From: Paramagnetospirillum caucaseum
GTDB lineage: Bacteria > Pseudomonadota > Alphaproteobacteria > Rhodospirillales > Magnetospirillaceae
Length of the DNA stretch: 64,000 nt
Direction of reading: 5' to 3'
Assembly (NCBI RefSeq): GCF_000342045.1
Contig: NZ_AONQ01000015.1
Location: 1 to 64,000 of the forward strand
Shown: positions 9,401-39,403 of the stretch, piece by piece
Numbering within the stretch: the first letter of the stretch is position 1
How the letters are laid out: each line of letters begins with the position of its first letter
Position numbers and translations under genes: made by a program
Notes under the pieces: model-generated
What the model was told of the DNA's origin: nothing
The model's input: the letters and a program-made list of their open reading frames with translations, nothing else
Databases searched by the model: none

Positions 9401-10923
9401 GTGTCGTCGCCCATGGAGCCGATGGCTTCCTTGGCGTCCTCGACCATGGGGTGGAGGATCAGCTCCATGTCCTCCATGGTCATGCCGTAGGCGGCCTGGC
9501 GGCGCTTCAACTCGTCCGAGGACAGCTCCGCCGGCTCGGGCGCCCCGGTCTTGACCAGGGAATCCAGCTCGGTGATGCGCTTGACCCAGGCGGAGTAATT
9601 GCGGCGCGACGCCAGCAGATCCTTGATCTCGGCGTCGCGGTAGAACTTGCCGGCGTCCAGGTCGACGGCGATGCTTTGCCCCGGCCCGACCCGGCCCTTC
9701 TCCACCACGTCGCAATCCTTGACCTTCACCATGCCGGTCTCGGAGCCGAGGATCAGCAGGCCGCCCTTGGTGATGGTGAAGCGCATGGGACGCAGGCCGT
9801 TGCGGTCGACGCCGGCCACCGCCCACGAACCGTCGGTGGCGCAGATGGCCGCCGGGCCGTCCCACGGCTCGATCACCGAGTTGCAATAGCCGAAGAAGGT
9901 GCGGTGCGCCTCGGGCATCAGGGCGTTGGAGCCCAAGGATTCCGGGATCAGCATCTGCTTGACCAGCGGCGCCGGGCGCCCGGCGCGACACATCACCTCG
10001 AAGACGTTGTCGAGCGCGGCGGAATCGGAACCGCCCGGCTGGACGACGGGTTTCAGGTCGTCCATGGCTTGGCCGAACACCTCGTGCTCCATGCGCGGCT
10101 CGTGGGCCTTCATCCAGTTGATGTTGCCGGTCAGCGTGTTGATCTCGCCGTTATGGGCCAGCATGCGGAACGGCTGGGCCAGACGCCAGGTGGGGAAGGT
10201 GTTGGTGGAATAGCGCTGGTGATAGATGGCGAAGCGCGACACGAAGCGCTTGTCCAGCAGGTCGGGATAGAAGCTGGTCAGCTGCTCGGCCAGGAACATG
10301 CCCTTGTAGATGATGGAGCGGCAGGACAGCGAGCAGATGTAGAAGTCGTTGATGTGGCTGCCCAGCACCCGCTTCTCGATGCGGCGGCGGATGACGAACA
10401 GATCGGCCTCGAACCGCTCCTCCGACGTGCCCAGCGTGTTGGCGATCATGATCTGCTCGATCTCGGGGCGGGTGGCGTTGGCCTTCTCGCCGATGATCGA
10501 CACGTCCACCGGCACCTGCCGCCAGCCGTAGATGGAATAGCCGAAGTTGAGGATTTCGGTCTCGACGATGCAACGGCAGTTTTCCTGGGCGCCCAGGTCG
10601 GTCTTGGGCAGGAACACCATGCCCACCGCCAGATGGCCCTCGGCCACCGCGTGCCCGGAATTGGCCACATGCTCTTTGAAGAAGTCCTGGGGGATTTCCA
10701 CATGGATGCCGGCGCCGTCGCCGGTCTTGCCGTCGGCGTCCACCGCGCCGCGATGGAACAGCACCGAAAGGGCCTGGATGCCGGCCTCCACCACGTCGCG
10801 CCGGGGCTTGCCGTCCAGCGCCGCCACCATGCCGACGCCGCAGGCGTCGTGCGGACGGGTGTCGATGCCGGCGGATTCCAGGATCTCCTGGTTGGCGAGG
10901 TACTGGGAGACGAAATCGGACAT
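6415..10923 (-). CDS. gltB: Glutamate synthase (GOGAT) large subunit
   Basis: A 1502-residue enzyme that makes two glutamates from glutamine and 2-oxoglutarate. The ATG at 10923 gives MSDFVSQY, a 27-residue propeptide and then Cys28 in HDACGVGM, the nucleophile of the class II amidotransferase domain once the propeptide is removed. The FMN synthase domain and the 3Fe-4S cluster ligands (CIMVRQCHSNTCPVGVC, about residue 1130) follow, then the GXGXG beta-helix domain at the C-terminus. gltD is 11 bases upstream. An open frame continues beyond this start into gltD but reads out-of-frame sequence. Together with NirBD/NasA it completes assimilation of ammonia into glutamate. Confidence 0.97.
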   Translation of the reverse strand: MSDFVSQYLANQEILESAGIDTRPHDACGVGMVAALDGKPRRDVVEAGIQALSVLFHRGAVDADGKTGDGAGIHVEIPQDFFKEHVANSGHAVAEGHLAVGMVFLPKTDLGAQENCRCIVETEILNFGYSIYGWRQVPVDVSIIGEKANATRPEIEQIMIANTLGTSEERFEADLFVIRRRIEKRVLGSHINDFYICSLSCRSIIYKGMFLAEQLTSFYPDLLDKRFVSRFAIYHQRYSTNTFPTWRLAQPFRMLAHNGEINTLTGNINWMKAHEPRMEHEVFGQAMDDLKPVVQPGGSDSAALDNVFEVMCRAGRPAPLVKQMLIPESLGSNALMPEAHRTFFGYCNSVIEPWDGPAAICATDGSWAVAGVDRNGLRPMRFTITKGGLLILGSETGMVKVKDCDVVEKGRVGPGQSIAVDLDAGKFYRDAEIKDLLASRRNYSAWVKRITELDSLVKTGAPEPAELSSDELKRRQAAYGMTMEDMELILHPMVEDAKEAIGSMGDDTPLAVLSAGYRGLHHFFKQNFSQVTNPPIDSLRESRVMSLRTRLGNLGNILDEDESQCDLLQLESPVLSNAEFAAMRKYMGEAAASIDCTFDPNGGVEALRDALARVRRESEEAVRGGCTHLILTDEGIGESKAAIPMILAAGGVHSHLVRLSLRTWTSLNVRSGECLDVHYFAVLIGVGATTVNAYLAQEAIADRQRRGLFGSMPLEECVRRYKYALDQGLLKIMAKMGISIVSSYRGGYNFEAVGLSRTLVAEFFPGMTSRISGIGLGGIQKKTVEQHATGFAGPAPALPIGGFYRVRRGSEAHSFDGSLIHLLQMAVAGDSYATYKKYSDGMRKLPPITIRDLLDLKPAGAAVSLDEVESITEIRKRFLTPGMSLGALSPEAHGTLNIAMNRIGAKSVSGEGGEDRERYRPRPNGDNANSAVKQIASGRFGVTAEYLNMCREIEIKVAQGAKPGEGGQLPGFKVTVEIAKLRHATPGVMLISPPPHHDIYSIEDLAQLIYDLKQINPQARVTVKLVSRSGIGTVAAGVAKAKADTILVSGHVGGTGASPQTSIKFAGLPWELGLSEAHQVLTLNRLRHRVRLRADGGLKTGRDIVIAAMLGAEEFGIGTSSLVAMGCIMVRQCHSNTCPVGVCTQDLSLREKFTGSPEKVVNLFSFIAEEVREILAALGVRSLAEIIGRADLLHQVSRGASHLDDLDLNPLLAQADTGGFPRYCVEEKGNEVPETLDAQMIIDAKPALEDGEKMQLDYNVRNVQRAIGTKLSHKIFKRHGMTGLAPGHVTVRLRGSAGQSLGAFAVQGLTLEVFGDSNDYVGKGLSGGTIIVRPPVASALKSNHNTIIGNTVLYGATAGKLFAAGQAGERFAVRNSGAETVIEGCGSNGCEYMTGGTAVILGPVGANFAAGMTGGMAFVYDSDGTFAKRVNPESVIWQRPETSHWEGALKALVQEHAAVTGSAWAESLLADWERELPRFWQVVPKEMLSRLAHPVGRAAAAE

Positions 10924-27014: not shown

Positions 27015-27174
27015 TACCGCTCCGCTCCTCCTCCGCCTCTGCCGCGAGGGTAGCACCGTCGCCGGCCATTGCAATGGCCGGCCGATGGCTTAAGGTCCCG
27101 GGGGAGGGGTGTTCGCTGCAACTGGCATGATACATGCTTGTTTGTCGGGGTGGTAACGAGGAAGGACCAGGCAA

Positions 27175-27747
27175 TTGCGGGTCATCGTGGTGGACGATGA
27201 GCGGGACCGGGCCGAGATGGTCCGCGACGCGCTGGAAGCGGACGGCTTCACCGTGGTGGCGGTGTTCGGCAGCGGCGCCGGCTTGCCCGCCCGGGTGGCG
27301 GAGCTGGCCGCCGACGTGATCATCGTCGATATCGATTCCCCTGACCGCGACACCCTGGAGGACATGCGCCGGGTCGGCATCGAGCAGGGTCGCCCGGTGG
27401 TGATGTTCGCCCAGGACGGCAAGCCCGAGACCATCAAGGCGGCGGTGGACGCCGGGGTTTCCGCCTATGTGGTGGACGGGCTGAAGCCCGACCGGGTGCG
27501 TCCGGTGATCGACGTGGCCATTGCCCGCTTCGCACAGTTCCAGTCCCTGCGGGGCGAGCTGGACAAGGCCCGCACCACGCTGGCCGAACGCAAGCAGATC
27601 GAGAAGGCCAAGGGCATCCTGATGAAGCGGCGCAAGGTCGAGGAGGACGAGGCCTACCGCCTGATGCGGCGCATGGCCATGGACCAGAAGCAGCGCCTGA
27701 TCGACGTCGCCAACAGGATCATCGAGGCAGCCGAACTGCTCGGCTGA
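27175..27747 (+). CDS. nasT: ANTAR-domain antiterminator NasT
   Basis: A 190-residue response-regulator-like protein. It has an N-terminal receiver (VVDDERDRAEM; D52 in IIVDIDSP) and a C-terminal ANTAR RNA-binding domain (LAERKQIEKAKGILMKRRKVEEDEAYRLMRRMAMDQKQRL, about residues 136-178). ANTAR proteins bind paired hexaloop hairpins and stop an intrinsic terminator from forming. NasT is held by the nitrate sensor NasS when nitrate is absent (known in Azotobacter and Paracoccus). The TTG start at 27175 follows GAGGAAGGA. Its likely targets are the leaders at 27962-28118 and 32548-32722. nasS is not adjacent but lies after nrtA-nrtB-nrtCD. Confidence 0.9.
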   Translation: MRVIVVDDERDRAEMVRDALEADGFTVVAVFGSGAGLPARVAELAADVIIVDIDSPDRDTLEDMRRVGIEQGRPVVMFAQDGKPETIKAAVDAGVSAYVVDGLKPDRVRPVIDVAIARFAQFQSLRGELDKARTTLAERKQIEKAKGILMKRRKVEEDEAYRLMRRMAMDQKQRLIDVANRIIEAAELLG

Positions 27748-27936
27748 TCTGCATAAATTTTAGCCCAAATGCCATATATCGATCAAAATATATGCATCGG
27801 CGGCGGAGGGCGGGCAGGTTTACCGCAGGGGCACATTAAGCCTATATTTTAATCATTAGAGTGCGCGTGATTAAAATATATGCAGCGTCCATATGCTGCA
27901 CCGCCGCAAACTCCCGGAATCGGTCAAATTCCTATC
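27748..27936 (+). promoter_or_regulatory. AT-rich region between nasT and the nrtA promoter
   Basis: No gene is seen. The segment holds a near-perfect direct repeat (GATYAAAATATATGCAKCG at 27781-27799 and 27869-27887) and a palindrome TGCAGC-N8-GCTGCA at 27881-27900. That palindrome is centred about 48 bases upstream of the sigma54 -24 element, a plausible place for an NtrC-like activator site. The first 12 bases after the stop (CTGATCTGCATA) recur after the nrtCD stop at 32420-32431. Confidence 0.45.
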
Positions 27937-27952
27937 TGGCACGATGGTTGCT
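27937..27952 (+). promoter_or_regulatory. Sigma54 (RpoN) promoter of nrtA unit
   Basis: TGGCACG-ATGG-TTGCT matches the -24/-12 consensus with GG and GC separated by exactly ten bases. Transcription would start near 27962, just ahead of the leader hairpins. It implies nitrogen-limitation control through an enhancer-binding protein such as NtrC. Confidence 0.85.
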
Positions 27953-27961
27953 TTGATCCGT

Positions 27962-28118
27962 CATGCACGGCGGAGCCCCTCAATGGCGAGGTCCCGCCGC
28001 AGGAATTGACGGACGGCCGACCCGGCGACGATGCCGGGCCCGGCCGAAAGGGAACAAAGGCGTTCCACGGAATTGCGCCCCCGCTGCGGGTGGCGCGACG
28101 CCGCGGAACGCCTTTTTT
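27962..28118 (+). ncRNA. ANTAR-responsive leader RNA of nrtA
   Basis: The predicted 5' leader holds several elements in order. P1 (27968-27999) has an outer CGGCGG/CCGCCG stem and an inner CCTC/GAGG stem closing hexaloop AATGGC. A middle hairpin (28021-28038) has loop GACGAT. P2 (28051-28066) is GGAAC/GTTCC closing hexaloop AAAGGC. P1 and P2 both have the A1 and G4 loop bases that ANTAR proteins recognise. The 3' part of P2 is also the 5' arm of the terminator at 28059-28118, so P2 and the terminator exclude each other. NasT binding is inferred. Confidence 0.8.
28059..28118 (+). terminator. Regulated intrinsic terminator in nrtA leader
   Basis: GGCGTTCC pairs with GGAACGCC, followed by six T residues (28113-28118). 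Inner pairing (CGG/CCG and GCGCC/GGCGC) extends the stem. It ends 32 bases before the nrtA ATG and overlaps hairpin P2, as expected for antitermination control. Confidence 0.85.
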
Positions 28119-28150
28119 GCGTTTGGCTTCAAGACTTGGCGAGGACTGAC

Positions 28151-29575
28151 ATGACGAAGACGATGAGTGACGGGTCCAAGGATATTCTGGCCGCCTTCGG
28201 CCGCCGTGGGGCCATGGGACTTGCGGCGGCGGCCCTGCTCGCCGTGGCCATGCCGCTTCCGGCCGGTGCCGCCAAGCTGAAGCTGGAGAAGGACGAGATC
28301 AAGCTCGGCTTCATCAAGCTGACCGACATGGCGCCGCTGGCCATCGCCAAGGAGAAGGGCTTCTTCGAGGACGAGGGGCTGTTCGTCACCCTGGAGCCCC
28401 AGGCCAACTGGAAGGTGCTGCTGGACCGGGTGATCTCGGGCGAGTTGGACGGCGCCCACATGCTGGCCGGTCAGCCGCTGGGCGCCACCATCGGCTACGG
28501 TACCAAGGCCCACGTGGTCACCGCCTTCTCCATGGACCTCAACGGCAACGGCATCACCGTCTCCAACGAGGTATGGGAGATGATGAGGCCGCACCTGCCC
28601 AAGGGTCCCGACGGCAAGATCGTCCATCCCATCAAGGCCGACGCCCTGAAGAAGGTGATCGACGCCTACAAGGCCCAGGGCAAGTCCTTCAACATGGGCA
28701 TGGTCTTCCCGGTCTCCACCCATAACTACGAACTGCGCTACTGGCTGGCCTCGGGCGGCATCAATCCCGGCTTCTACTCGCCCGAGAACGTCGGCGGCCA
28801 GATCGGCGCCGACGCCTTGCTGTCGGTCACCCCGCCGCCCCAGATGCCCGCCACCCTGGAGGCCGGCACCATCTCCGGCTATTCGGTGGGCGAACCCTGG
28901 AACCAGGCCGCCGTGTTCAAGGGCATCGGCGTGCCGGTGATCACCGATTACGAAATCTGGAAAAACAATCCCGAGAAGGTGTTCGGCGTCAACAACGCCT
29001 GGGCCGAGAAATATCCCAACACCCACGTGGCGGTGGTCAAGGCGCTGATCCGCGCCGGCAAGTGGCTGGACGAGAACAACAACGCCAACCGCGACGAGGC
29101 GGTGAAGATCCTGGCCAAGCCGGAATACGTGGGCGCCGACGCCAAGGTCATCGCCAATTCCATGACCGGCACCTTCGAATACGAGAAGGGCGACAAGCGC
29201 GCCGTTCCCGATTTCAACGTGTTCTACCGCTATTTCGCCACCTATCCCTACTACTCGGACGCCATCTGGTACCTGAGCCAGATGCGCCGCTGGGGGCAGA
29301 TCGCCGAGGGCAAGCCGGACTCGTGGTACCTGGAGACCGCCCGGTCGGTCTACAAGCCGGACACCTACCTGAAGGCGGCCAAGGCCCTGCTGGAGGAGGG
29401 CAAGGTGGCCAAGGAGGACTTTCCCTGGGACACCGACGGCTTCCGCGCTCCCACCTCCGACTTCATCGACGGCGTCGCCTATGACGACAGGAAGCCCAAC
29501 GACTACCTGAAGAAGTTCGCGGTCGGCCTCAAGGGCGGCCAGAAGGTGGAAAACAACAAGGTCGTCGGGAACTGA
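28151..29575 (+). CDS. nrtA: Nitrate ABC transporter substrate-binding protein
   Basis: A 474-residue NrtA/CmpA-family binding protein. It has a twin-arginine-like signal ([26 protein letters not shown]), so it is probably exported folded to the periplasm. The core begins at [28 protein letters not shown] and contains [16 protein letters not shown] and [11 protein letters not shown], typical of nitrate/bicarbonate-type binding proteins. The ATG at 28151 follows GAGG. It is the first gene after a sigma54 promoter and ANTAR leader, and heads nrtA-nrtB-nrtCD. Nitrate as substrate is inferred from linkage with nasA and nirBD. Confidence 0.9.
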
Positions 29576-29582
29576 AGGACCA

Positions 29583-29613
29583 ATCCCTCCCCCGGTGCGG
29601 CCGGGGGAGGGAT
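29583..29613 (+). other. Stable intra-operon hairpin between nrtA and nrtB
   Basis: A perfect 13-bp stem (ATCCCTCCCCCGG/CCGGGGGAGGGAT) with a five-base loop and no T run sits eight bases after the nrtA stop. Such hairpins often protect the upstream mRNA from 3' exonucleases, giving more binding protein than permease. Confidence 0.7.
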
Positions 29614-29654
29614 CGGGCGATCGAGGGACAACGAACGTGAACGAGGATAAGACC

Positions 29655-30734
29655 ATGACCAGCATCACCCAGGTCGCCGGCGCCCAGGCCGCCGCTCCCA
29701 AGAAGTCCGCCATCTCGCTCGGCTACGCCTTCAACCGGGCCGGTGCCATCCTGACCGTCGCCGGGTTCGGCTGGGTCGTCCCGCTGGGCCGGCTGGCCAC
29801 CGGCACCGAACCCCGCCGGCAGGTGGCCGAGCTGTGGCGCCAACTGGGCATTCCCCTGGCGGCCATCGTCCTGTTCCTGCTGGCCTGGGGGGCGCTGGCC
29901 CCCAAGGTGCAGACCTCGCTGGGTGCGGTTCCCGGTCCGGTCGAGGTCTGGGCGCAGGTGGACAACCTGATCGCCGACCACCGGGCCGAGCGTGCCAAGG
30001 AGGCCGCCTTCAACGAGCGCCAGGCCAAACGCAACGCCGAGGCCAAGGCCGAGGGCGGCGAGGTCAAGACCCGCAGGTTCACCGGCAAGCCCACCTATCT
30101 CGACCAGATCGCCACCAGCCTGAAGACGGTGTTCATGGGCTTCGTGCTGGCCACCCTGGTGGCGGTGCCGCTGGGCGTCATGTGCGGCCTGTCCAAGACG
30201 GTCAACGCCGCGCTGAACCCGCTGATCCAGATCTTCAAGCCGGTCTCGCCGCTGGCCTGGCTGCCCATCGTCACCATGGTGGTGTCGGCCACCTATGTCA
30301 GCAATGATCCCATGTTCGAGAAGGCCTTCCTCAACTCGGCGATCACCGTGACGCTGTGCTCGCTGTGGACCACCCTGATCAACACCGCCATCGGCGTCGC
30401 CTCCATCGACAAGGATCTGGTCAATGTGGGCCGGGTGCTCAACCTGCCCATGACCACCACCATCCGCAAGCTGGTCCTGCCCTCGGCGCTGCCCTACATC
30501 TTCACCGGCATGCGGCTGTCGCTGGGCGTGGGCTGGATGGTGCTGATCGCCGCGGAGATGCTGGCCCAGAACCCCGGCCTCGGCAAGTTCGTGTGGGACG
30601 AGTTCCAGAACGGCTCGTCGCAATCGCTGGCCAAGATCATGGTGGCGGTGCTGACCATCGGCCTGATCGGCTTCCTGCTCGACCGGGTGATGATGGCGCT
30701 GCAGGCCATGTTCTCCCACTCCGCCACCCGCTGA
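29655..30734 (+). CDS. nrtB: Nitrate ABC transporter permease
   Basis: A 359-residue inner-membrane permease of the NrtB/SsuC family. An early helix (IPLAAIVLFLLAWGAL) is followed by a charged insert of about 40 residues (HRAERAKEAAFNERQAKRNAEAKAEGGEVKTRR). Five helices then carry the EAA-type loop (VGRVLNLPMTTTIRKLVLPSALPYIFTGMRLSLGVGW). The insert lies between the first helix and the core and looks longer than usual. The ATG at 29655 follows GAGGATAAG. It pairs with the downstream fused ATPase. Confidence 0.9.
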   Translation: MTSITQVAGAQAAAPKKSAISLGYAFNRAGAILTVAGFGWVVPLGRLATGTEPRRQVAELWRQLGIPLAAIVLFLLAWGALAPKVQTSLGAVPGPVEVWAQVDNLIADHRAERAKEAAFNERQAKRNAEAKAEGGEVKTRRFTGKPTYLDQIATSLKTVFMGFVLATLVAVPLGVMCGLSKTVNAALNPLIQIFKPVSPLAWLPIVTMVVSATYVSNDPMFEKAFLNSAITVTLCSLWTTLINTAIGVASIDKDLVNVGRVLNLPMTTTIRKLVLPSALPYIFTGMRLSLGVGWMVLIAAEMLAQNPGLGKFVWDEFQNGSSQSLAKIMVAVLTIGLIGFLLDRVMMALQAMFSHSATR

Positions 30735-30746
30735 GGAGGGTTCATC

Positions 30747-32423
30747 ATGGCATTCCTCGAACTCAAGGGCGTCGCCAAGGCCTACGGCCAGACCACGGTC
30801 CTGCGCGACATCGACCTGGCCATCGAGGAGGGCGAGTTCATCGCCATCCTCGGCTTCTCCGGCTCGGGCAAGACCACCCTGGTCTCCCTGATGGCCGGCC
30901 TCGCCGCCCCCGATGCCGGCCAGGTGCTGCTGCGCGGTAAGCCGGTGGTTGGCCCCGGCGCCGATCGCGGCGTGGTGTTCCAGAGCTATTCCCTGATGCC
31001 CTGGCTGACGGTGGAGGGCAACGTCGCCCTGGCGGTGGATGCCGTCATGGCCGGCGCCCCCAAGGCCGAGCGCGCCGCCAAGGTCGCCAAGTATATCGGC
31101 ATGGTCGGCCTGTCCCACGCGGTGGACCGCCGCCCGGCCGAACTGTCGGGCGGCATGCGCCAGCGGGTCGCCGTGGCCCGCGCCCTGGCCATGAGCCCCG
31201 ACATCCTGCTGCTCGACGAGCCGCTGTCGGCGCTCGACGCCCTGACGCGGGCCAAGCTCCAGGACGAGATCGAGTCCATCTGGGAGCAGGAGAAGAAGAC
31301 CGTCGTCCTGATCACCAACGACGTGGACGAGGCGCTGCTGCTGGCCGACCGGATCATTCCGCTCAATCCCGGACCCAAAACGCTGATGGGGGGCGCTACC
31401 CTGGGGCCGGCCTTCAAGGTCAACCTGCCCCGTCCGCGCGACCGCGCCGCCGTCAATCACGACGAGGATTTCAAGCGCCTGCGGGCCGAGATCACCGAAT
31501 ACCTGATGGCGGTCGGCGTCGAGCGCGGCGCCGAGGCCGGCGACGGCCGCGCCCTGCCCGACGTGGCGCCCATCAGCGTCGGCGGCCCGCCCAAGGCCTA
31601 TCGCGAGGCCGGGCGGGTCAACAATCCCGACCGCTACGTCGAATTCTCGCAGGTCAAGAAGATCTTCCCGACCCCCAAGGGGCCGCTGACCGTGGTGGAC
31701 GGCTTCGACCTCAAGATGCACCGGGGCGAGTTCATCTCGCTGATCGGCCATTCCGGCTGCGGCAAGTCCACGGTGCTGACCATGACGGCGGGCCTGACCG
31801 AGGTGTCGGAAGGCGGTGTCATCCTGGACGGCCGCGAGGTCACCGACGCCGGCCCCGACCGCGCCGTGGTGTTCCAGGCCCCCTCGCTGTTTCCCTGGCT
31901 GACGGCGCTGCAGAATGTGGCGCTGGGCGTCGACCGGGTCTATCCCCACGCCAGCCCGGCCGAGCGCCTGGACATCGTGTCCTATTACCTGGAACGGGTC
32001 GGCCTCGGCGATTCCATGGACAAGAAGGCCGCGGACCTGTCCAACGGCATGAGGCAGCGGGTCGGCATCGCGCGGGCCTTCGCGCTGAGCCCCAAGCTGC
32101 TGCTGCTCGACGAGCCCTTCGGCATGCTGGACTCGCTCACCCGCTGGGAACTGCAGGAGGTGCTGATGGAGGTCTGGGCGCGCACCCAGGTCACCGCCAT
32201 CTGCGTCACCCATGACGTGGACGAGGCCATCCTGATGGCCGACCGGGTGGTGATGATGACCAACGGCCCCAATGCCCGCATCGGCAAGGTGCTGCATGTG
32301 GACATCCCGCGTCCGCGCTCGCGCCGCGCCCTGCTCGAGCACCCCCGCTACTACGAGTATCGCGCCGAGGTGCTGGATTTCCTGGACGAGTACGAAACCG
32401 GCGCCCATTCTAAGGCCTCCTGA
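30747..32423 (+). CDS. Nitrate ABC transporter, two fused ATPase domains
   Basis: A 558-residue tandem ABC ATPase. Domain 1 (about 1-260) has Walker [10 protein letters not shown], signature LSGGMRQR and Walker [13 protein letters not shown]. Domain 2 (about 290-558) has [17 protein letters not shown] and [12 protein letters not shown]. The H-loop is THDVDEA in domain 2 but TNDVDEA in domain 1, so one of the two sites lacks the switch histidine. Cyanobacteria encode NrtC and NrtD separately, and NrtC carries a binding-protein-like tail that is absent here. It starts 12 bases after nrtB and ends the transporter unit. Confidence 0.9.
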
Positions 32424-32522
32424 TCTGCATAGAAAATAACCAGCACTATTGTCTCTGTTCTAAATTTAGGCACATCGACCCGGACATTCGCCGAAATCCC
32501 TGACAGACCGCCATTCCGGCCC
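32424..32522 (+). promoter_or_regulatory. Upstream region of the second sigma54 promoter
   Basis: No gene is seen between the nrtCD stop and the promoter. The region starts in TGATCTGCATA, shared with the end of nasT, and is AT-rich around 32440-32475. No clear palindrome like that at 27881-27900 was found. No terminator for nrtCD was recognised, so some readthrough into the second leader is possible. Confidence 0.4.
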
Positions 32523-32538
32523 TGGCACGGGACATGCA
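32523..32538 (+). promoter_or_regulatory. Sigma54 (RpoN) promoter of nasS-nirBD-nasA unit
   Basis: TGGCACG-GGAC-ATGCA has the -24 and -12 elements with GG and GC ten bases apart; one base of the TTGCW element differs. Transcription would begin near 32548, ahead of the second leader. Confidence 0.75.
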
Positions 32539-32547
32539 AGTGAAAGG

Positions 32548-32722
32548 GCGAGTTTGGTACCGGGCGGCAAACGGCCTCAATGGCGAGGTGACCGCCGCCC
32601 GGAACAAAGCCCGCGGGCCGCGACGAAGCGGCCGGCCGGGTGACGGAACAAAGGCGTTCCACGGAATTCGGCGCGGCCCCGGACGGGGCCCGGCGCCGGG
32701 CATTCCGCGGAACGCCTTTTTT
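32548..32722 (+). ncRNA. ANTAR-responsive leader RNA of nasS-nirB-nirD-nasA
   Basis: This leader has the same order of elements as the one before nrtA. P1 (32560-32602) has a CCGGGCGGC/GCCGCCCGG outer stem and CCTC/GAGG closing the same hexaloop AATGGC. A middle hairpin (32616-32633) has loop GACGAA. P2 (32645-32660) is GGAAC/GTTCC with the same hexaloop AAAGGC. P2 overlaps the terminator arm. The loops and the terminator-arm block are identical in both leaders while outer stems differ with compensation, a sign of selected RNA structure. Confidence 0.8.
32653..32722 (+). terminator. Regulated intrinsic terminator in nasS leader
   Basis: GGCGTTCC-A-CGGAAT pairs with ATTCCG-C-GGAACGCC, followed by TTTTTT (32717-32722), with a further GC-rich hairpin inside. 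It overlaps hairpin P2 and ends 22 bases before the nasS ATG. Confidence 0.85.
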
Positions 32723-32744
32723 GTTTGGCCGAGGGACCCAAGAG

Positions 32745-33968
32745 ATGAGAGTGGAAAAGACCCGCCTGAAGCTCGGTATCGTGCCGCTGATCGACGCGGC
32801 CCCCCTGGTGGTGGCCAAGGAGCGCGGCTTCTTCGCCGAGATGGGCCTGGACGTCGAGCTGTCGCGCGAGGCCTCGTGGGCCTCCATCCGCGACAAGGTG
32901 GCGGTGGGCGCCCTGGACGGCGCCCAGATGCTGGCCCCCATGCCCCTGGCCATGAGCCTGGGGCTGTCGCCGCTGAAGCTGCCCATGGCCGCCGGCATGG
33001 CGCTCAGCCTGGGCGGCAACACCATCACCATCGGCAACGCGCTGTGGGAGCGCATGGAACAGGCCGATCCCGAATCCATGGCCGTCCGGCCGGTCTCGGC
33101 CCGCGCCCTGAAGCGGGTCATCGAGGCCGACAAGGCCTGCGGCCGCCCGCCCATGACCTTCGCCACCGTCTATCCCTATTCCCCCCACGCCGCCGAGTTG
33201 CGCCTGTGGATGGAGGCCGCCGGCATCGATACCCGGACGGACGTCCTCCTCACCGTGGTGCCGCCGTCCCAGATGATCTCGTTCCTGTCGGCGGGCAACA
33301 TCGTCGGCTATGCGGTGGGCGAGCCCTGGGGCAGCCTGGCGGTGCGCATGAGCCTGGGCCGCACCGCCGCCGCCAGCGCCGACATCTTCGCCGGCCGGCT
33401 GGAAAAGGTCTTCGCCGTGACGCAGGCGTGGGCCGAAACCTATCCCGAGACCCATCTGGCGGTACTGCGGGCGTTGATCTCCGCCGCCATCTGGTGCGAC
33501 GGCAACCGTTCGGAACTGGCCGGGCTGCTGGCCCAGCCGCAATACGTCAACGCCCCGGTCGAGGCGCTGCTGGCGCCGCTGCTGGGCGAGAACGGACTGC
33601 CCGGGGATTTGCTGGTCTTCCACGCCCATGCCGCCAACTTCCCCTGGCGCTCCCAGGCCATGTGGTACCTGGAGATGATGAAGCGCTGGGACATGGCGCC
33701 GGCCGCCCTGGATACGCGGGCCGCCGCCGAGGCCGTGTTCCGCCCCGACCTCTACCGGGTGGCCGCCCTGGCGCTGGGCCTCGGCGTCCCGCTGACCGAC
33801 TACAAGACCGAGGGCACCCATGCCGCCCCCTGGACCCTGCTGAAGGCCACGGGGCCCATGGAGATGGGGCCGGACCTGCTGCTGGGCGGCCTGACCTTCG
33901 ACCCCTTCACCTCCCGCGTTACCGCCTTGCCCCCGACGGCCAGAACCGAATCAGGAGACCTCACATGA
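32745..33968 (+). CDS. nasS: Nitrate sensor NasS (cytoplasmic NrtA-like)
   Basis: A 407-residue NrtA/CmpA-family protein that starts directly at the mature fold (MRVEKTRLKLGIVPLIDAAPLVVAKERGFFAEMGLDV) and has no signal peptide. This is the hallmark of NasS, the cytoplasmic nitrate sensor that sequesters NasT. It keeps the family motifs GALDGAQMLAPMPLA, VVPPSQMISFLSAGNIVGYAVGEPWGS and WRSQAMWYLEMMKRWD. The ATG at 32745 follows GAGGG. Its stop overlaps the nirB ATG by four bases. It sits downstream of an ANTAR leader, so NasT should control its own partner. Confidence 0.85.
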   Translation: MRVEKTRLKLGIVPLIDAAPLVVAKERGFFAEMGLDVELSREASWASIRDKVAVGALDGAQMLAPMPLAMSLGLSPLKLPMAAGMALSLGGNTITIGNALWERMEQADPESMAVRPVSARALKRVIEADKACGRPPMTFATVYPYSPHAAELRLWMEAAGIDTRTDVLLTVVPPSQMISFLSAGNIVGYAVGEPWGSLAVRMSLGRTAAASADIFAGRLEKVFAVTQAWAETYPETHLAVLRALISAAIWCDGNRSELAGLLAQPQYVNAPVEALLAPLLGENGLPGDLLVFHAHAANFPWRSQAMWYLEMMKRWDMAPAALDTRAAAEAVFRPDLYRVAALALGLGVPLTDYKTEGTHAAPWTLLKATGPMEMGPDLLLGGLTFDPFTSRVTALPPTARTESGDLT

Positions 33969-36424
33969 ACGCTGTTCCCCGTCAGAAGCTGGTGGTCATC
34001 GGCAACGGCATGGCCGGCATGCGCACCGTCGAGGAGCTGCTGGCCATCGCCCCGGCCCGCTACGACATCACGGTGTTCGGCGCCGAGCCCCACCCCAATT
34101 ACAACCGCATCATGCTGTCCTCGGTGCTGGCCGGCGAGAAGCAGGTGGACGACATCGTCATCAACCCGCGCGCCTGGTACGCCGACAACGGCATCACCCT
34201 TCACACCGGCGACCCGGTGGTCGGCATCGACCGCGCGGCCAAGACCGTCACCTCGGCCAACGGCGTGGTGGTCCCCTATGACAAGCTGCTGCTGGCCACC
34301 GGCTCCAAGCCGCTGATGCCGCCGCTGCCAGGCCTGGAGCTGCCCGGCGTGGTCGCCTTCCGCGACATCGCCGACGTGGAGAAGATGCTGGACGCCGCCG
34401 AGGCCAAGCAGCGCGCCGTGGTGATCGGCGGCGGCCTGCTGGGCCTGGAGGCCGCCTGGGGCCTGAAGCGGCGCGGCATGCCCGTCGCCCTGGTCCACCT
34501 GATGCCCACCCTGATGGAGCGCCAGTTGGACGTGGAGGCCGGCGGCCTGCTGCAGAAGGACCTGACCGAGCGCGGCCTGCACTTCTTCACCTCGGGCCAG
34601 ACCGAGGAGATCATGGGCGTCGAGGACGGCCGCGCCCAGGGCGTCAAGCTGACCGACGGCCGCGAGATTCCCGCCGATCTGGTGGTCGTCGCCATCGGCA
34701 TCCGTCCCAACGTCGACCTAGCCAAGGCCTCGGGCCTCGACATCAACCGCGGCATCGCGGTGGGCGACGACATGGCCACCTCGGACCCGGCCATCTATTC
34801 GGTGGGCGAATGCGTCGAGCATCGCGGCCAGATCTTCGGCCTAGTGGCGCCCATCTGGGAGCAGGCCAAGGTCTGCGCCTCGCGCCTCGCCGGCCGCGAC
34901 GACGCCCATTACGAGACCCCGCCGCTGTCCACCCGCCTCAAGATCACCGGCATCGACGTGTTCTCGGCGGGACAGCTGGCGGCCCAGGACGAGGCCGACG
35001 AGGAACTGGTCTACCGCGACAGCGCCAGGGGCATCTACAAGAAGCTGGTGCTGCGCGCCGACAAGGTGGTGGGCGCCGTGATGTACGGCGACGTGGCCGA
35101 CGGCTCCTGGTACTTCCAGCTGATTCGGGAAAAGGCCGACGTGGCCGCCATCCGCGACCGCATGATCTTCGGTCAGGCCTATGCCGACGCCACCTGCAAG
35201 GGCCATGCGGGCGGCGTCGACGTCGCCGCCATGAGCGACGATGCCCAGGTCTGCGGCTGCAACGGCGTCAGCAAGGGCGCCATCGTCAGGGCCATCACCG
35301 GGAAGGGCCTCACCTCGCTGGACGAGGTCAAGGCCCACACCAAGGCCTCGGCCTCCTGCGGCCAGTGCGCCTCGGTGGTCCAGGCCATCCTGACCCATGT
35401 CACCGGCGAGGTGGTGGAGGCCAAGGCCGCCGGCATGTGCGGCTGCACCGACCTCTCCCACGACGAGGTGCGCAAGGAAATCCTCCATCAGGGTCTCAAG
35501 ACCCAGGACGCGGTGCGTTCGGCCCTGGGCTGGCGCCATGCCGATGGCTGCGCCAAATGCCGCCCGGCCCTGAACTACTACCTGCTGTGCGCCTGGCCGG
35601 CGGAATACGTCGACGATTACCAGAGCCGCTTCATCAACGAGCGCGTCCACGCCAACATCCAGAAGGACGGCACCTATTCGGTGGTGCCGCGCATGTGGGG
35701 CGGCCTGACCACCCCCGATGAGCTGCGCGCCATCGCCGACGTGGCCGACAAGTACGAGATCCCCACCGTCAAGGTCACCGGCGGCCAGCGCATCGACCTG
35801 CTGGGCGTCAAGAAAGAGGACCTGCCCGGCGTGTGGGCCGACCTGGGCAAGGCCGGGCTGATCTCGGGCCACGCCTATTCCAAGGGCCTGCGCACCGTCA
35901 AGACCTGCGTCGGCTCGGAATGGTGCCGCTTCGGCACCCAGGACTCCACCGGCCTCGGCGTCAAGCTGGAGAAGCTGATGTGGGGCTCGTGGACGCCGCA
36001 CAAGGTCAAGCTGGCGGTGTCGGGCTGCCCGCGCAACTGCGCCGAGGCCACCATCAAGGATATCGGCGTGGTCTGCGTCGAGGCCGGCTACGACATCTCG
36101 GTGGGCGGCAACGGCGGCATCGAACTGCGCGGCACCGACCATCTGGTGCGCGTCGCCACGGAAGGAGAGGTGCTCGAATATGCCGGCGCCTTCATGCAGA
36201 TCTACCGCGAGGAGGCCCGCTACCTGGAGCGCACCGCGCCATGGGTCGAACGGGTCGGCATGGACTATGTCAAGAAGCGGGTGGTCGAGGATGCCGAAGG
36301 CCGTCGCGCCGCCTTCGCCCGCTTCGTCTTCTCGCAGGAATACGCGCAGATCGACCCCTGGGCCGAGCGGGCCTCGGGGCGGGTCGATGCGCACGAATTC
36401 AAAACCCTGGCCGAGGTGGGCTGA
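33965..36424 (+). CDS. nirB: Assimilatory nitrite reductase large subunit
   Basis: An 819-residue NAD(P)H-dependent nitrite reductase that makes ammonium. Domains are FAD binding (VVIGNGMAGMRTVEEL), NAD binding (AVVIGGGLLGLEAAWGL), a BFD-like [2Fe-2S] domain (CGCNGVSKG; CGQC, about residues 420-460) and a C-terminal siroheme/[4Fe-4S] domain with CVGSEWC and CPRNC (about 645-690). It overlaps nasS by four bases and is followed three bases later by nirD. All cluster ligands are present. Confidence 0.97.
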   Translation: MNAVPRQKLVVIGNGMAGMRTVEELLAIAPARYDITVFGAEPHPNYNRIMLSSVLAGEKQVDDIVINPRAWYADNGITLHTGDPVVGIDRAAKTVTSANGVVVPYDKLLLATGSKPLMPPLPGLELPGVVAFRDIADVEKMLDAAEAKQRAVVIGGGLLGLEAAWGLKRRGMPVALVHLMPTLMERQLDVEAGGLLQKDLTERGLHFFTSGQTEEIMGVEDGRAQGVKLTDGREIPADLVVVAIGIRPNVDLAKASGLDINRGIAVGDDMATSDPAIYSVGECVEHRGQIFGLVAPIWEQAKVCASRLAGRDDAHYETPPLSTRLKITGIDVFSAGQLAAQDEADEELVYRDSARGIYKKLVLRADKVVGAVMYGDVADGSWYFQLIREKADVAAIRDRMIFGQAYADATCKGHAGGVDVAAMSDDAQVCGCNGVSKGAIVRAITGKGLTSLDEVKAHTKASASCGQCASVVQAILTHVTGEVVEAKAAGMCGCTDLSHDEVRKEILHQGLKTQDAVRSALGWRHADGCAKCRPALNYYLLCAWPAEYVDDYQSRFINERVHANIQKDGTYSVVPRMWGGLTTPDELRAIADVADKYEIPTVKVTGGQRIDLLGVKKEDLPGVWADLGKAGLISGHAYSKGLRTVKTCVGSEWCRFGTQDSTGLGVKLEKLMWGSWTPHKVKLAVSGCPRNCAEATIKDIGVVCVEAGYDISVGGNGGIELRGTDHLVRVATEGEVLEYAGAFMQIYREEARYLERTAPWVERVGMDYVKKRVVEDAEGRRAAFARFVFSQEYAQIDPWAERASGRVDAHEFKTLAEVG

Positions 36425-36427
36425 ACC

Positions 36428-36763
36428 ATGCAGGACTGGATCAAGATCGGACGGGTCGAGGACATCCCCAGGCTGGGCGCCCGCACCGTCCACACGACCA
36501 AGGGCGATATCGCGGTGTTCCGTACCTCGGGCGACGATATCTTCGCCCTGTTCAACCGCTGTCCCCACAAGGGCGGGCCGCTGTCCGAGGGCATCGTCAC
36601 CGGCAAGGTGGTGGTCTGCCCGCTGCATTCATGGACCATCGACCTGGAGACCGGCGAGGCCACCGCCCCCGACGAGGGCTGCACCCGCCCGGTGGAGTCC
36701 AGGGTGGCCGACGGGCAGGTCTGGCTGAAGCTGGAATGCGCGAAAAAGGTGGCCCATGGCTGA
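36428..36763 (+). CDS. nirD: Nitrite reductase small subunit, Rieske type
   Basis: A 111-residue protein with a Rieske-like fold that partners NirB. CPHKGGPLSEG and VVCPLHSW give the two Cys-x-His ligand pairs. Many NirD proteins lack the Rieske ligands; here C-x-H and C-x2-H are both present, so a [2Fe-2S] cluster is likely. It is three bases after nirB and 33 bases before nasA. Confidence 0.93.
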   Translation: MQDWIKIGRVEDIPRLGARTVHTTKGDIAVFRTSGDDIFALFNRCPHKGGPLSEGIVTGKVVVCPLHSWTIDLETGEATAPDEGCTRPVESRVADGQVWLKLECAKKVAHG

Positions 36764-36796: not shown

Positions 36797-39403
36797 ATGA
36801 TCGACACCGCGATCCGCACCACCTGTCCCTATTGCGGCGTCGGCTGCGGCGTCATCGCCGAACGTGATGACGCGTCCGGGGCATGGGCGGTGCGTGGCGA
36901 TCCCGGCCATCCCGCCAATTTCGGCCGGCTGTGCGTCAAGGGCGCCGCCCTGGCCGAGACCATCGGCCTCGACGGCCGTCTGCTCCACCCGATGATCGGC
37001 GGCGCGGCGGCGGGCTGGGAGACGGCGCTGGATCTGGTGGCGGAAAAGTTCTCCGCCGTCATCGCCGAGCACGGCCCGGATTCGGTGGCCTTCTACGTCT
37101 CCGGCCAGTTGCTGACCGAGGATTACTACGCCGCCAACAAGCTGATGAAGGGGTTCATCGGCTCGGCCAACATCGACACCAATTCCCGGCTGTGCATGTC
37201 GTCCACCGTGGCCGGCCATGTGCGGGCCTTCGGCTCCGACACCGTCCCCGGCTGCTACGAGGACCTGGACCTGGCCGACCTGGTGGTCCTGGTCGGCTCC
37301 AACACCGCCTGGTGCCATCCGGTGGCCTTTCAGCGCATCCTGGCCGCCAAGACAAGGCGGCCCGACATGCGCATCGTGGTCATCGATCCGCGCCGCACCG
37401 CCACCGCCGAATGCGCCGACCTGCATCTGGCCATCCGTCCCGGCTCCGACGCCATCCTGTTCAACGGCCTGCTCGCCCATCTCAAGGGCGAGGAGACCGA
37501 CCTGGACGTGGGCGTGCCCCTGGAGCAGATCGTCAGCTTCTTCTCGTGGTTCGCCGACACCGAGAAGACCGTCACCGTATGGTCCCAGGGCATCAACCAG
37601 TCGTCGTCCGGCACCGACAAGGTGGATGCCATCATCAACTGCCACCTCCTGACGGGGCGCATCGGGCGGCCCGGCATGGGGCCGTTCTCGCTGACCGGCC
37701 AGCCCAACGCCATGGGCGGGCGCGAGGTGGGGGGGCTGGCCAACATGCTGGCCGCCCATATGGGCTTCGACGAGGCCAATGTGGAACGGGTGGGCCGTTT
37801 CTGGAACGCGCCGCGCATGGCCGCCAAGCCCGGCCTCAAGGCGGTAGACCTGTTCAAGGCGGTCAAGGACGGCAGGATCAAGGCGCTGTGGGTGATGGCC
37901 ACCAATCCGGCGGTCAGCCTGCCCGAGGCCGACGAGGTCCGCGCCGCCATGGCGGCCTGCCCCTTCGTGGTGATCTCCGAATGCGAGGCCGACACCGATT
38001 CGGCCCAGTTCGCCCATGTGCGCCTGCCGGCCCTGGCCTGGGGCGAGAAGGTGGGCACCGTCACCAATTCCGAGCGCCGCATCTCGCGCCAGCGCCCCTT
38101 CCTGCCCGCCCCGGGCGAGGCCAGGGGCGATTGGTGGATCATCGCCCAGGTGGCCGGGCGCATGGGGTTCGGCGAGGCCTTCGCTTGGACCGGCGCCGGG
38201 GAAATCTTCGACGAGTTCTGCCGCCTGACCGCCTTCGAGAACGATGGCGCCCGCGATCTGGACCTTGCCGGTCTGGTCGGCGGCGATTACGAGAGCCTCG
38301 AGCCCATCCAGTGGCCGGTGAAGGCCCCGGGGCAGGGCACGGCGCGGCTGTTCGCCGACGGCCGTTTCTACCACCCCGACGGCCGGTCCCGGATGCTCGA
38401 CATCGAGCCGCGTCCGCCGGCCCGGTTGCCCGACGAGGCCTTTCCCCTGATCCTCAACACCGGGCGCATGCGCGACCAGTGGCACACCATGACGCGCACC
38501 GGCCGCTCGGCTCGTCTGGCCGCCCATGCCCCCGAACCGCTGCTGTCCGTCCACCCCAGGGACGCGCTGCGTTTCGGCCTCGCCGATGGCGGCCTGGCCC
38601 GGGTATCGGGCCGCCGGGCCGCGGTAGTGCTGCGCGTCGCCCTGGACAGCGGTCAGCGCCCGGGCGAGGTCTTCGCCCCCATCCACTGGAACGACCGCAC
38701 CGCCTCCGGCGCGGTGGTCGGCAGCCTGATCGACGCCGCCACCGATCCGGTCTCGGGCCAGCCGGAGCTGAAGCAGGCGCCGGTGATGGTCGCGCCCCTG
38801 GCCGCCGCCTGGCACGGCGTGCTGCTCAGCCGCAACCCGGTGGAACTGCCGCGCTCGCTCTATTGGGCCAAGGCGGCGGGCCACGCCCATTCCATCTGGC
38901 GGCTGGCGGGCGAGGCCGGCGAGGACTGGCCCGCCACCGCCAAGCAATGGCTGGGAACGGATGGCGAGTGGATCGAGTTCCTCGACCCCAATCGCGGCCA
39001 TTACCGCGGCGCCCGGCTGGTGGACGGCCGCCTGGATTCGGTGCTGTTCGTCTTTCCCTGGGCCACCGATTTCTCGCCCGACTGGGTGGCTGCCGCCTTC
39101 GGCCGCGCCGCCATCGAGGGCGGCGAGCGCGCCACCCTGGTGGCCGGCGCTCCGCCCGGCGGCGACCGGGGCCGCGACAAGACGGTCTGCGCCTGCTTCA
39201 ACGTCGGCCTCGCGACCATCCGCGCCGCCATCCGCGACCATCGCCTGTCCAGCGCCGCCGAGGTGGGGGCCGATGCTGAAGGCCGGGACCAATTGCGGCT
39301 CGTGCGTGCCGGAAATTCGGGCGATCCTGGCCGAGGCGGCGCCGAAGGTGGCTTAGAACCGGTTACGCCGTGGCCGTCGCCGGGGGCGACAGCGGCAGGC
39401 TGA
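36797..39403 (+). CDS. nasA: Assimilatory nitrate reductase catalytic subunit, C-terminal frameshift
   Basis: An 868-residue open frame for a molybdopterin (bis-MGD) nitrate reductase. The N-terminal [4Fe-4S] ligands are TTCPYCGVGCGV and GRLCVKG, and the MGD-binding and C-terminal beta-barrel domains follow. The last domain is BFD-like: CACFNVG is in frame, but its second half (LKAGTNCGSCVPEIRAILAEA) lies in the next frame from about 39273 and ends at TAG 39354-39356. One extra base, perhaps in the G5 run 39265-39269, explains this. As written, the final 44 residues are non-homologous and run into the convergent kinase gene. The start ATG follows GAGGAGAG. Confidence 0.92.
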   Translation: MIDTAIRTTCPYCGVGCGVIAERDDASGAWAVRGDPGHPANFGRLCVKGAALAETIGLDGRLLHPMIGGAAAGWETALDLVAEKFSAVIAEHGPDSVAFYVSGQLLTEDYYAANKLMKGFIGSANIDTNSRLCMSSTVAGHVRAFGSDTVPGCYEDLDLADLVVLVGSNTAWCHPVAFQRILAAKTRRPDMRIVVIDPRRTATAECADLHLAIRPGSDAILFNGLLAHLKGEETDLDVGVPLEQIVSFFSWFADTEKTVTVWSQGINQSSSGTDKVDAIINCHLLTGRIGRPGMGPFSLTGQPNAMGGREVGGLANMLAAHMGFDEANVERVGRFWNAPRMAAKPGLKAVDLFKAVKDGRIKALWVMATNPAVSLPEADEVRAAMAACPFVVISECEADTDSAQFAHVRLPALAWGEKVGTVTNSERRISRQRPFLPAPGEARGDWWIIAQVAGRMGFGEAFAWTGAGEIFDEFCRLTAFENDGARDLDLAGLVGGDYESLEPIQWPVKAPGQGTARLFADGRFYHPDGRSRMLDIEPRPPARLPDEAFPLILNTGRMRDQWHTMTRTGRSARLAAHAPEPLLSVHPRDALRFGLADGGLARVSGRRAAVVLRVALDSGQRPGEVFAPIHWNDRTASGAVVGSLIDAATDPVSGQPELKQAPVMVAPLAAAWHGVLLSRNPVELPRSLYWAKAAGHAHSIWRLAGEAGEDWPATAKQWLGTDGEWIEFLDPNRGHYRGARLVDGRLDSVLFVFPWATDFSPDWVAAAFGRAAIEGGERATLVAGAPPGGDRGRDKTVCACFNVGLATIRAAIRDHRLSSAAEVGADAEGRDQLRLVRAGNSGDPGRGGAEGGLEPVTPWPSPGATAAG

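Follow-up and report, generated by a model that had tools for sequence, protein, structure and literature searches.

Two leader RNAs in the nitrate assimilation cluster of Paramagnetospirillum caucaseum, one before the transporter genes nrtABCD (leader 1) and one before the unit nasS-nirBD-nasA (leader 2), were analysed within a stretch of 64,000 nucleotides (nt), hereafter the window (positions 1 to 64,000 of contig NZ_AONQ01000015.1, forward strand). The explanation that best covers the whole of sequence, predicted structure, covariation, conservation and co-occurrence, and that we regard as reasonably probable, is that each leader would be an attenuator controlled by the antiterminator NasT and would carry an extra hexaloop, the working pair being a middle hairpin (M) and the antiterminator hairpin (P2). 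Taken separately, the presence of NasT attenuators behind sigma54 promoters is highly probable, and for M as a real contact of NasT the balance tips slightly in favour. An earlier note on this DNA had named the far hairpin and P2 as the bearers of the ANTAR recognition bases; it overlooked that M, by its G at loop position 4 (G4) and its C:G closing pair, is of the ANTAR hexaloop type too.

All elements described here lie on the + strand unless stated otherwise. Leader 1, at 27962–28118 as placed by the earlier note, has as its first element a far hairpin P0 (27968–27999, the P1 of the earlier note), which has the loop AATGGC at 27982–27987 in the minimum-energy fold and whose top pairs are opened in the centroid structure. 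M follows at 28014–28046 with the hexaloop GACGAT (28027–28032) carrying G4, as given by fold and covariation. P2, GGAAC[AAAGGC]GTTCC with its loop at 28056–28061, occupies 28051–28066 in the fold of the truncated leader and is overlapped by an intrinsic terminator (28056–28118, fold and covariation) that ends in T6 at 28113–28118. Leader 2 (32548–32722) has the same order, with P0 at 32560–32602 (loop AATGGC, 32579–32584; fold), M at 32616–32633 (hexaloop GACGAA, 32622–32627; fold and hairpin listing), P2 at 32645–32660 (loop AAAGGC, 32650–32655; fold of the truncated leader) and the terminator at 32650–32722 (T6 at 32717–32722; fold). Thus two leaders with sigma54-type sites, AATGGC and AAAGGC loops and T6 tails are found where the earlier note had put them, by sequence and by computation, and P0 and P2 of both have A1 and G4 as it had said, together with a C:G closing pair. 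The 16-nt P2 occurs in exactly two copies in the window, and allowing up to 2 mismatches gives 3 matches against 0.03 expected.

The full leaders are predicted to be far more stable than shuffled sequences (z = −4.8 for leader 1 and −5.9 for leader 2), and their folds form the terminator by using the loop and the 3′ arm of P2. In these terminated full-length folds P0 and M stay open and P2 is buried. Leaders cut after P2 fold into P0, M and P2 instead, with z = −2.0 and −3.2. Fold prediction and covariation together make P2 mutually exclusive with the terminator, so that the earlier statement that the 3′ arm of P2 is the 5′ arm of the terminator in both leaders holds. For the covariation, 30 leaders were gathered from loci of the family by their P2 sequence and 28 of them were aligned, leaving out L025 and the narK leader of L032, where the far hairpin is missing in that place. 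The terminator helix covaries, including position 3 of the P2 loop, which is paired only in the terminator (AU in 20 leaders, CG in 7, GU in 1); no other result speaks as strongly for the switch. The whole-structure covariation score of the 28 leaders was 0.246, compared with 0.014–0.086 for slid and 0.091 for shuffled alignments, and the count of cells was 37 against 15.5 in shuffles. Covariation in relatives, on which the earlier claim had been staked, was therefore found.

In the same alignment A2 of the M loop is constant (28 of 28 leaders); G4 is found in 26 leaders, the C:G closing pair in 27 and A1 in only 9, and the M helix shows changes on both sides in 4 of its 6 pairs. To see M in a wider frame, a set of 58 distinct leaders was used, 35 from one family and 23 others, collected by a finder that accepts a candidate only if the terminator matches in full, if 4 or more Watson-Crick pairs form and if the P2 loop reads AA.GG[ACT], which excludes other make-ups such as L122. 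The spread of such leaders was read from two sources, namely NasT loci (at least 589 candidate stretches, of which 486 encode a relative and 80 were kept) and a P2-terminator pattern, which gave 27 matches in 26 of 398 genomes and 0 in the control columns. Some members without a sigma54 site of score 13.5 (L143, L149, L161 and L162) may be no leaders and were kept in the 58. A far hairpin is present in 45 of the 58, and between it and P2 an [AG]A.G hexaloop with at least 4 pairs is found in 34 of these 45, where dinucleotide shuffles give 1.5. From this near loop to the P2 loop downstream the distance is 18–30 nt in all but one of the 34; in the exception, L042, the program reported one at 50 first, although another stands at 26. 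A near hexaloop also occurs in Sulfuricellaceae, in the BD1-7 clade and in Inquilinus, and the near loops of L191, L192 and L194 read AATGAT, AACGGC and AGTGCT. Moreover, among nirB leaders of the Rfam P11 type, 11 of 14 have a near A..G hexaloop, closed by G-C, where 0.47 would be expected.

Spacing is the reason for which M is preferred to P0 as the partner of P2. Comparisons with published systems draw, here and below, on excerpts of PMC3369931, PMC3795266, PMC5424462, PMC6759348, PMC7496416, PMC8934654, PMC12080996, PMC12830290, PMC3973561, PMC8131098 and PMC8164766. In these excerpts eut linkers measure 5–12 nt, and in eutP, with a loop distance of 24, linkers of 3 nt or 14 nt cut induction drastically; adding 20 nt between hairpins abolished antitermination, and a curated survey accepted linkers of 2–25 nt. 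In the window the M loop stands 28–29 nt from the P2 loop, and the linker between the inner stems of M and P2, as read from the predicted folds, is 12 and 11 nt, or 4 and 3 nt if the outer M pairs form. The P0 and P2 loops are 74 nt (leader 1) and 71 nt (leader 2) apart, and 55–84 nt apart in the 45 leaders, too far for adjacent hairpins with a short linker. The spacing of M and P2 being nearer to known working spacing, M fits the role of partner better than P0, though imperfectly. The ANTAR pair drawn earlier from P0 and P2 is doubtful by the same measure, with the failure of the 14-nt eutP linker and the limits of the survey set against it.

The position of the promoter varies with the number of hexaloops. 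A sigma54 site with a score of at least 13.5 was found in 44 of the 58 leaders, the other 14 having none at that score. From promoter to P2 loop the distance is 58–74 nt in 6 of 7 leaders with only a near hexaloop (97 in the seventh) and 95–127 in 29 of the 30 that have a near as well as a far one (167 in the thirtieth); far-only leaders lie at 97–127 (n = 6) and the one leader with neither at 118. Among 13 further leaders, 5 were near-only (4 with a promoter at 69–75, 1 at 125), 3 had both, 3 were far-only and 2 had none by the program. Promoter distance thus largely separates short two-hairpin leaders from long ones. In most leaders transcription would thus start shortly before the first hexaloop, which supports promoters and hairpins together.

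The leader 1 promoter is a sigma54-type site found by pattern search at 27937–27952, TGGCACGATGGTTGCT; that of leader 2 lies at 32523–32538, TGGCACGGGACATGCA, and has a weaker −12 element, ATGC instead of TTGC. Both leaders have GG-N10-GC in a TGGCAC/TTGC context on their 5′ side, leader 2 deviating at −12, and in promoter 2 GG-N10-GC is kept in 5 of 5 aligned sequences while the base before TGC varies. The pattern TGGCAY-N6-TGCW has 3 matches in the 64 kb, where 0.60 would be expected; as many were seen in 3 of 100 shuffles. The third match, a sigma54-like site at 27123–27138, TGGCATGATACATGCT, precedes nasT, which has no leader, so that each of the three units nasT, nrtA and nasS is preceded by such a site; in the family, 10 of 19 regions upstream of nasT have a similar pattern, 52–57 nt before the frame used. 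Matches for rpoN and ntrC in the genome exceed their cut-offs. From the type of promoter, transcription would be started by the NtrC system, and NtrC is quite probably the activator.

Upstream of both promoters lies an AT-rich motif, at 27873–27884 (AAAATATATGCA, 64 nt before the sigma54 site of leader 1) and at 32461–32472 (TAAATTTAGGCA, 62 nt before that of leader 2, and present in 5 of 5 nasS leaders examined). In the window and in L032–L037 this motif, which mostly ends in TAKGCA, begins 52–65 nt before the sigma54 site at 5 of 7 nrt, 5 of 5 nasS and 1 of 1 narK promoters; in more distant relatives, none of the 6 nrt promoters has it. Within the window it is confined to the intergenic stretches that precede the two leaders (27762 on the − strand, 27785, 27873 and 32461), and the copies are partly arranged as inverted pairs. 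The distances fall at −52/−53 and −62/−65, which are apart by about one helical turn. By its placement the motif looks like a candidate activator site, to which we assign no binding protein. A pattern of motif plus promoter has 1 match in the genome, at leader 1, and hence gives no tie to other nitrogen genes.

To follow the leaders across relatives, a covariance model of the 28 leaders (R1) was used. In its own genome the strong matches are the two leaders only (132.5 and 113.3 bits), and of the weak ones (28.1, 23.9 and 19.7 bits) two lie on the opposite strand of the leaders. Across the order, R1 matched 33 of 317 genomes, 30 within the family and 3 weakly outside it, so that it is too specific to gauge spread. 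At least 2 sense leaders occur in 7 of the 30 leader-bearing genomes, with three in G046. An ANTAR protein above the Pfam cut-off is encoded in 29 of 55 family genomes: leader and ANTAR protein occur together in 28, a leader only in 2 (G018 and G027), an ANTAR protein only in 1 (G004) and neither in 24, a group that includes G007 with an ANTAR match under the cut-off. This co-occurrence has a Fisher p = 3e-12, a value that flatters, since R1 was built on leaders found close to nasT and the genomes, being related, do not count as independent.

Some relatives depart from the arrangement of the window in ways that we record here. In G023 (L029) a leader of the window kind is accompanied by a NIT-ANTAR (NasR-like) protein as the sole ANTAR match, with domains tested; the same combination in G024 and G028 is deduced from frame length. 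The third leader of L032 (G046), a short one with two hairpins at 10733 on the − strand, stands before a transporter of the major facilitator superfamily (Pfam MFS_1), which we take to be NarK, and before a frame that we read as phosphatase/kinase-like. Several leaders were also seen elsewhere, with three in L132 (NarK, NrtA and NirB), two in L134 (NarK and NrtA) and two in G574.

Several results weigh against the reading of M and P2 as the working pair of NasT attenuators, and they are best taken together. Of the 58 leaders, 35 belong to one family; the invariance of the P2 stem in the family leaders is by selection, and R1, built from leaders near nasT, may favour co-occurrence. Pairs changed on both sides numbered 5, which 288 of 500 shuffles reach. 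The −12 element of promoter 2 is imperfect, and a dyad scan and an upstream alignment recognised no NtrC palindrome upstream of the leaders. With regard to M itself, the predicted outer M pairs, if formed, would shorten the linkers to P2 to 4 and 3 nt, and 3 nt is a length that failed in eutP. The M loops of the window have G at position 1, and when A1 is required the near hexaloop is found in 14 of 45 leaders (2.2 expected). In the EutV-RNA structure paper, as excerpted, the base that stacks is G4, whereas A1 is described as lacking any specific contact, hence G1 of M need not be fatal. The near hairpin of P11 and NalA is closed by G-C, unlike the C:G favoured when NasR ligands were selected by systematic evolution of ligands by exponential enrichment (SELEX). 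Finally, P0 loops resemble P2 more than M loops do.

The last point leads to the alternative that NasT would contact only P0 and P2 and that M would be a compacting spacer bringing both together, which we consider possible but clearly doubtful. In all 28 aligned family leaders the P0 loop is AAYGGC, invariant apart from position 3, and is closed by C:G, like P2; the 2 of 30 that lack P0 in that place are excluded. A far hexaloop without a clean near one is seen in 6 of 44 well-promoted leaders and neither in 1 of 44; 3 of the 13 further leaders (L187–L189) are far-only, so that P0 can be sole partner, and the near A..G hexaloop is missing in 3 of 14 P11 leaders. However, the distance between the P0 and P2 loops in the 45 leaders far exceeds that of eutP, where longer linkers fail, and a pure spacer needs no A2/G4 hexaloop, yet one is present far above expectation. 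Moreover, short leaders depend on the near hairpin alone. As to whether P0 is accessory rather than the sole partner, we see the chances as about equal.

There are two further explanations. The leaders might be ordinary attenuators or terminators outside NasT control, for example answering another factor, as could be argued from the 2 of 30 leader-bearing family genomes, both drafts (G027 with 7% contamination), that have no ANTAR match. This is very improbable given the co-occurrence in the other genomes, loops and closing pairs that equal the ANTAR consensus, and leaders that adjoin nasT or nasTS. Alternatively, the terminated leader would itself be a functional small RNA, binding NasT through its free P0 and M hexaloops and so tuning the nitrate threshold or coupling the two operons. 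The predicted terminated fold, with P0 and M open, would suit this function. The excerpts also report that one hexaloop suffices for EutV binding and that a small RNA may sequester EutV, that ANTAR-titrating RNAs exist in Enterococcus, Listeria and a mycobacterium, and that the Pseudomonas counterpart was discovered as a small RNA. We hold this explanation to be unlikely, though slightly less so than the absence of NasT control.

On the reading that we prefer, with M and P2 as the likeliest working pair, the system would operate as follows. When nitrogen is short, the NtrC system would start transcription of the leaders. When nitrate is absent, NasS would hold NasT, and RNA polymerase would stop at the T6 terminator. 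When nitrate is present, NasT would be freed, dock on hexaloops of the nascent leader and stabilise P2, whose loop and 3′ arm are also part of the terminator, and read-through would follow into nrtABCD from leader 1 or nasS-nirBD-nasA from leader 2. NasT would be offered three tandem hexaloops, far P0, near M and the antiterminator P2, with P0 as an extra upstream recruitment site that is present only if the promoter is far enough upstream. In addition, nasS stands behind leader 2, so NasT would promote synthesis of its presumed inhibitor, giving a negative feedback. In the 20 family loci, where NasS and NrtA were distinguished by the better tblastn match, nasS is downstream of a leader in 15 and between nasT and the leader in 3, and 2 could not be assigned.

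This is the nitrate AND nitrogen-limitation gate of the earlier note, which is well supported by the sigma54-type promoters, the rpoN and ntrC matches, NasT as the sole ANTAR match, a NasS-like protein in the cluster, the covarying switch and its conservation. The AND gate as such is an already established mechanism and not new. Nor are several ANTAR leaders per regulator or the titration of an ANTAR protein by RNA, both of which are already known. The excerpts state that Klebsiella nas genes need both Ntr and NasR, and for NalA, the Pseudomonas nirBD leader, sigma54, phosphorylated NtrC and NasT are described. The Klebsiella nasF leader resembles those of the window in its Ntr-dependent start, nitrate-dependent ANTAR antitermination and hexaloops with A1, G4 and C:G; it differs in that NasR is a one-component NIT-ANTAR sensor rather than a NasS-NasT system and in that two hairpins are described. 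In Paracoccus denitrificans, as is presumed here, nitrate is described to release NasT from NasS, and NasT binds the nasA leader; the nasT promoter is NtrC-dependent there, and nasTS are co-transcribed upstream of the leader, whereas in the window nasS stands behind leader 2. The Enterococcus eut system likewise has one ANTAR protein (EutV), several leaders and a P2 overlapping the terminator, in contrast with the window in its dual hexaloop with a 5–12-nt linker, where the window has three hexaloops, and in its histidine-kinase signal. The PPE1-5′ RNA of Mycobacterium tuberculosis is also an ANTAR-bound RNA (by PdtaR) with three predicted hairpins; it is described as titrating its regulator in trans, its loops are not described as hexaloops in the excerpts, and it is not a nitrate leader.

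A further close counterpart is P11 (RF00625). An Rfam search gave 0 matches in the window at the gathering threshold. At a permissive threshold 5 matches fell in 27700–32800, all far under the cut-off and P11 alone informative, with 18.3 bits against a gathering value of 70. The leaders of the window are for this reason not filed as P11, though apparently working alike. Over its own cut-off, all 14 hits of P11 (L166–L179) are directly followed by a NirB match, in genomes presumed to be Pseudomonas, with a similar hexaloop-terminator anatomy, from which we infer that P11 is the same RNA as NalA. Like the window leaders, NalA/P11 has a sigma54-type promoter, a far C:G-closed hexaloop, a near A..G hexaloop and an AAAGGC P2 inside the terminator. 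Unlike them, its near hairpin is G-C closed and its loops are spaced at 18 (near) and 39–42 (far, found in 10 of 14), compared with 28–29 and 71–74; moreover, 13 of its 14 genomes have one P2-terminator match and G574 two, while the window has two leaders.

The two leaders are 61–68% identical within a genome and form separate sets across species. In a tree of the 28 leaders, the nrt and nasS sets of the nearest relatives of the window split with a support of 0.93 each, and the tree does not say which leader is older. The earlier term 'paralogous' is compatible with this identity and would go further than the tree does. Behind leader 1 the transporter varies among relatives: when L034 and L036 are set against L033 and L035, NrtA is 88–90% identical to that of the window in some and 32% in others, the leader being retained, which suggests a swap of transporters behind the same switch in L033–L036.

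The nitrate assimilation cluster runs on the + strand in the order nasT, nrtA, nrtB, nrtCD, nasS, nirB, nirD and nasA and ends at 39403. The gene nasT (27175–27747, TTG start) encodes a receiver and ANTAR antiterminator (Pfam Response_reg and ANTAR), which is the sole ANTAR match in a search of the genome; its nearest named relatives among the matches listed are from Phaeospirillum, Magnetospirillum and Paramagnetospirillum. Its residues K140, K144, Y161 and M169 align with Lys143, Lys147, Tyr164 and Met172 of 6wsh, the best solved relative, in our own numbering of the aligned positions. This entry is titled only 'Response regulator', and we take it to be EutV. Those four residues are the RNA contacts named for EutV in the excerpts. 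The transporter consists of nrtA (28151–29575; nitrate-binding protein, Pfam NMT1_2, with a twin-arginine-like signal read by eye from the sequence), nrtB (29655–30734; permease, Pfam BPD_transp_1, with NCBIfam TIGR01183 best but under its cut-off) and nrtCD (30747–32423; two fused ATPase domains, Pfam ABC_tran in two stretches, NCBIfam TIGR01184 above cut-off). A simple terminator scan fails to detect even the terminator of leader 2, and that it reports none between nrtCD and leader 2 therefore carries little weight on whether nrt transcripts might run on into leader 2 for a second check.

Behind leader 2, nasS (32745–33968) encodes an NrtA-like protein, the presumed nitrate sensor and NasT inhibitor, with Pfam NMT1_2 from residue 4 and no obvious signal peptide as judged by eye over 32745–33968; none of the NCBIfam models names this product NasS. 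It is followed by nirB (33965–36424; nitrite reductase large subunit, TIGR02374 above cut-off), nirD (36428–36763; small subunit, TIGR02378 above cut-off) and nasA (36797–39403; presumed assimilatory nitrate reductase, Pfam Molybdopterin and Molydop_binding). For nasS and nasA, where no NCBIfam model exceeds its cut-off, the names come from domains and position. A receiver-ANTAR protein and an NrtA-like sensor without signal peptide are thus both present, as in a NasS-NasT system, by Pfam and by eye for the signal. At 39363–39403 the ends of nasA and of a convergent frame, apparently coding for a sensor kinase, overlap by 41 bases.

Among the best matches of term searches of the literature, we found no third ANTAR-type hexaloop in NasT leaders, which existing papers may already hold, as they may the identity of P11 and NalA, and no link between promoter distance and hairpin number; nor did they show a nasS gene placed after a NasT leader of its own. 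For the ANTAR target the literature gives a dual hexaloop, and how one ANTAR dimer uses two hairpins is stated to be still open. A more speculative and rather improbable extension of our reading is a relay, in which NasT leaders of Pseudomonadota would present far recruitment, near and antiterminator hexaloops, the position of the promoter setting whether there are two or three; the released RNA, with two free hexaloops, would be a NasT sponge coupling the transporter and reductase operons, and nasS would close the negative feedback. Leaders that naturally have three hexaloops, only the near one or only the far one form a ready series for testing such a model of recruitment and transfer. The P11 family has also been studied as a small RNA in worm avoidance learning, and its similar anatomy suggests that the worm-learning RNA may be a terminated NasT leader.

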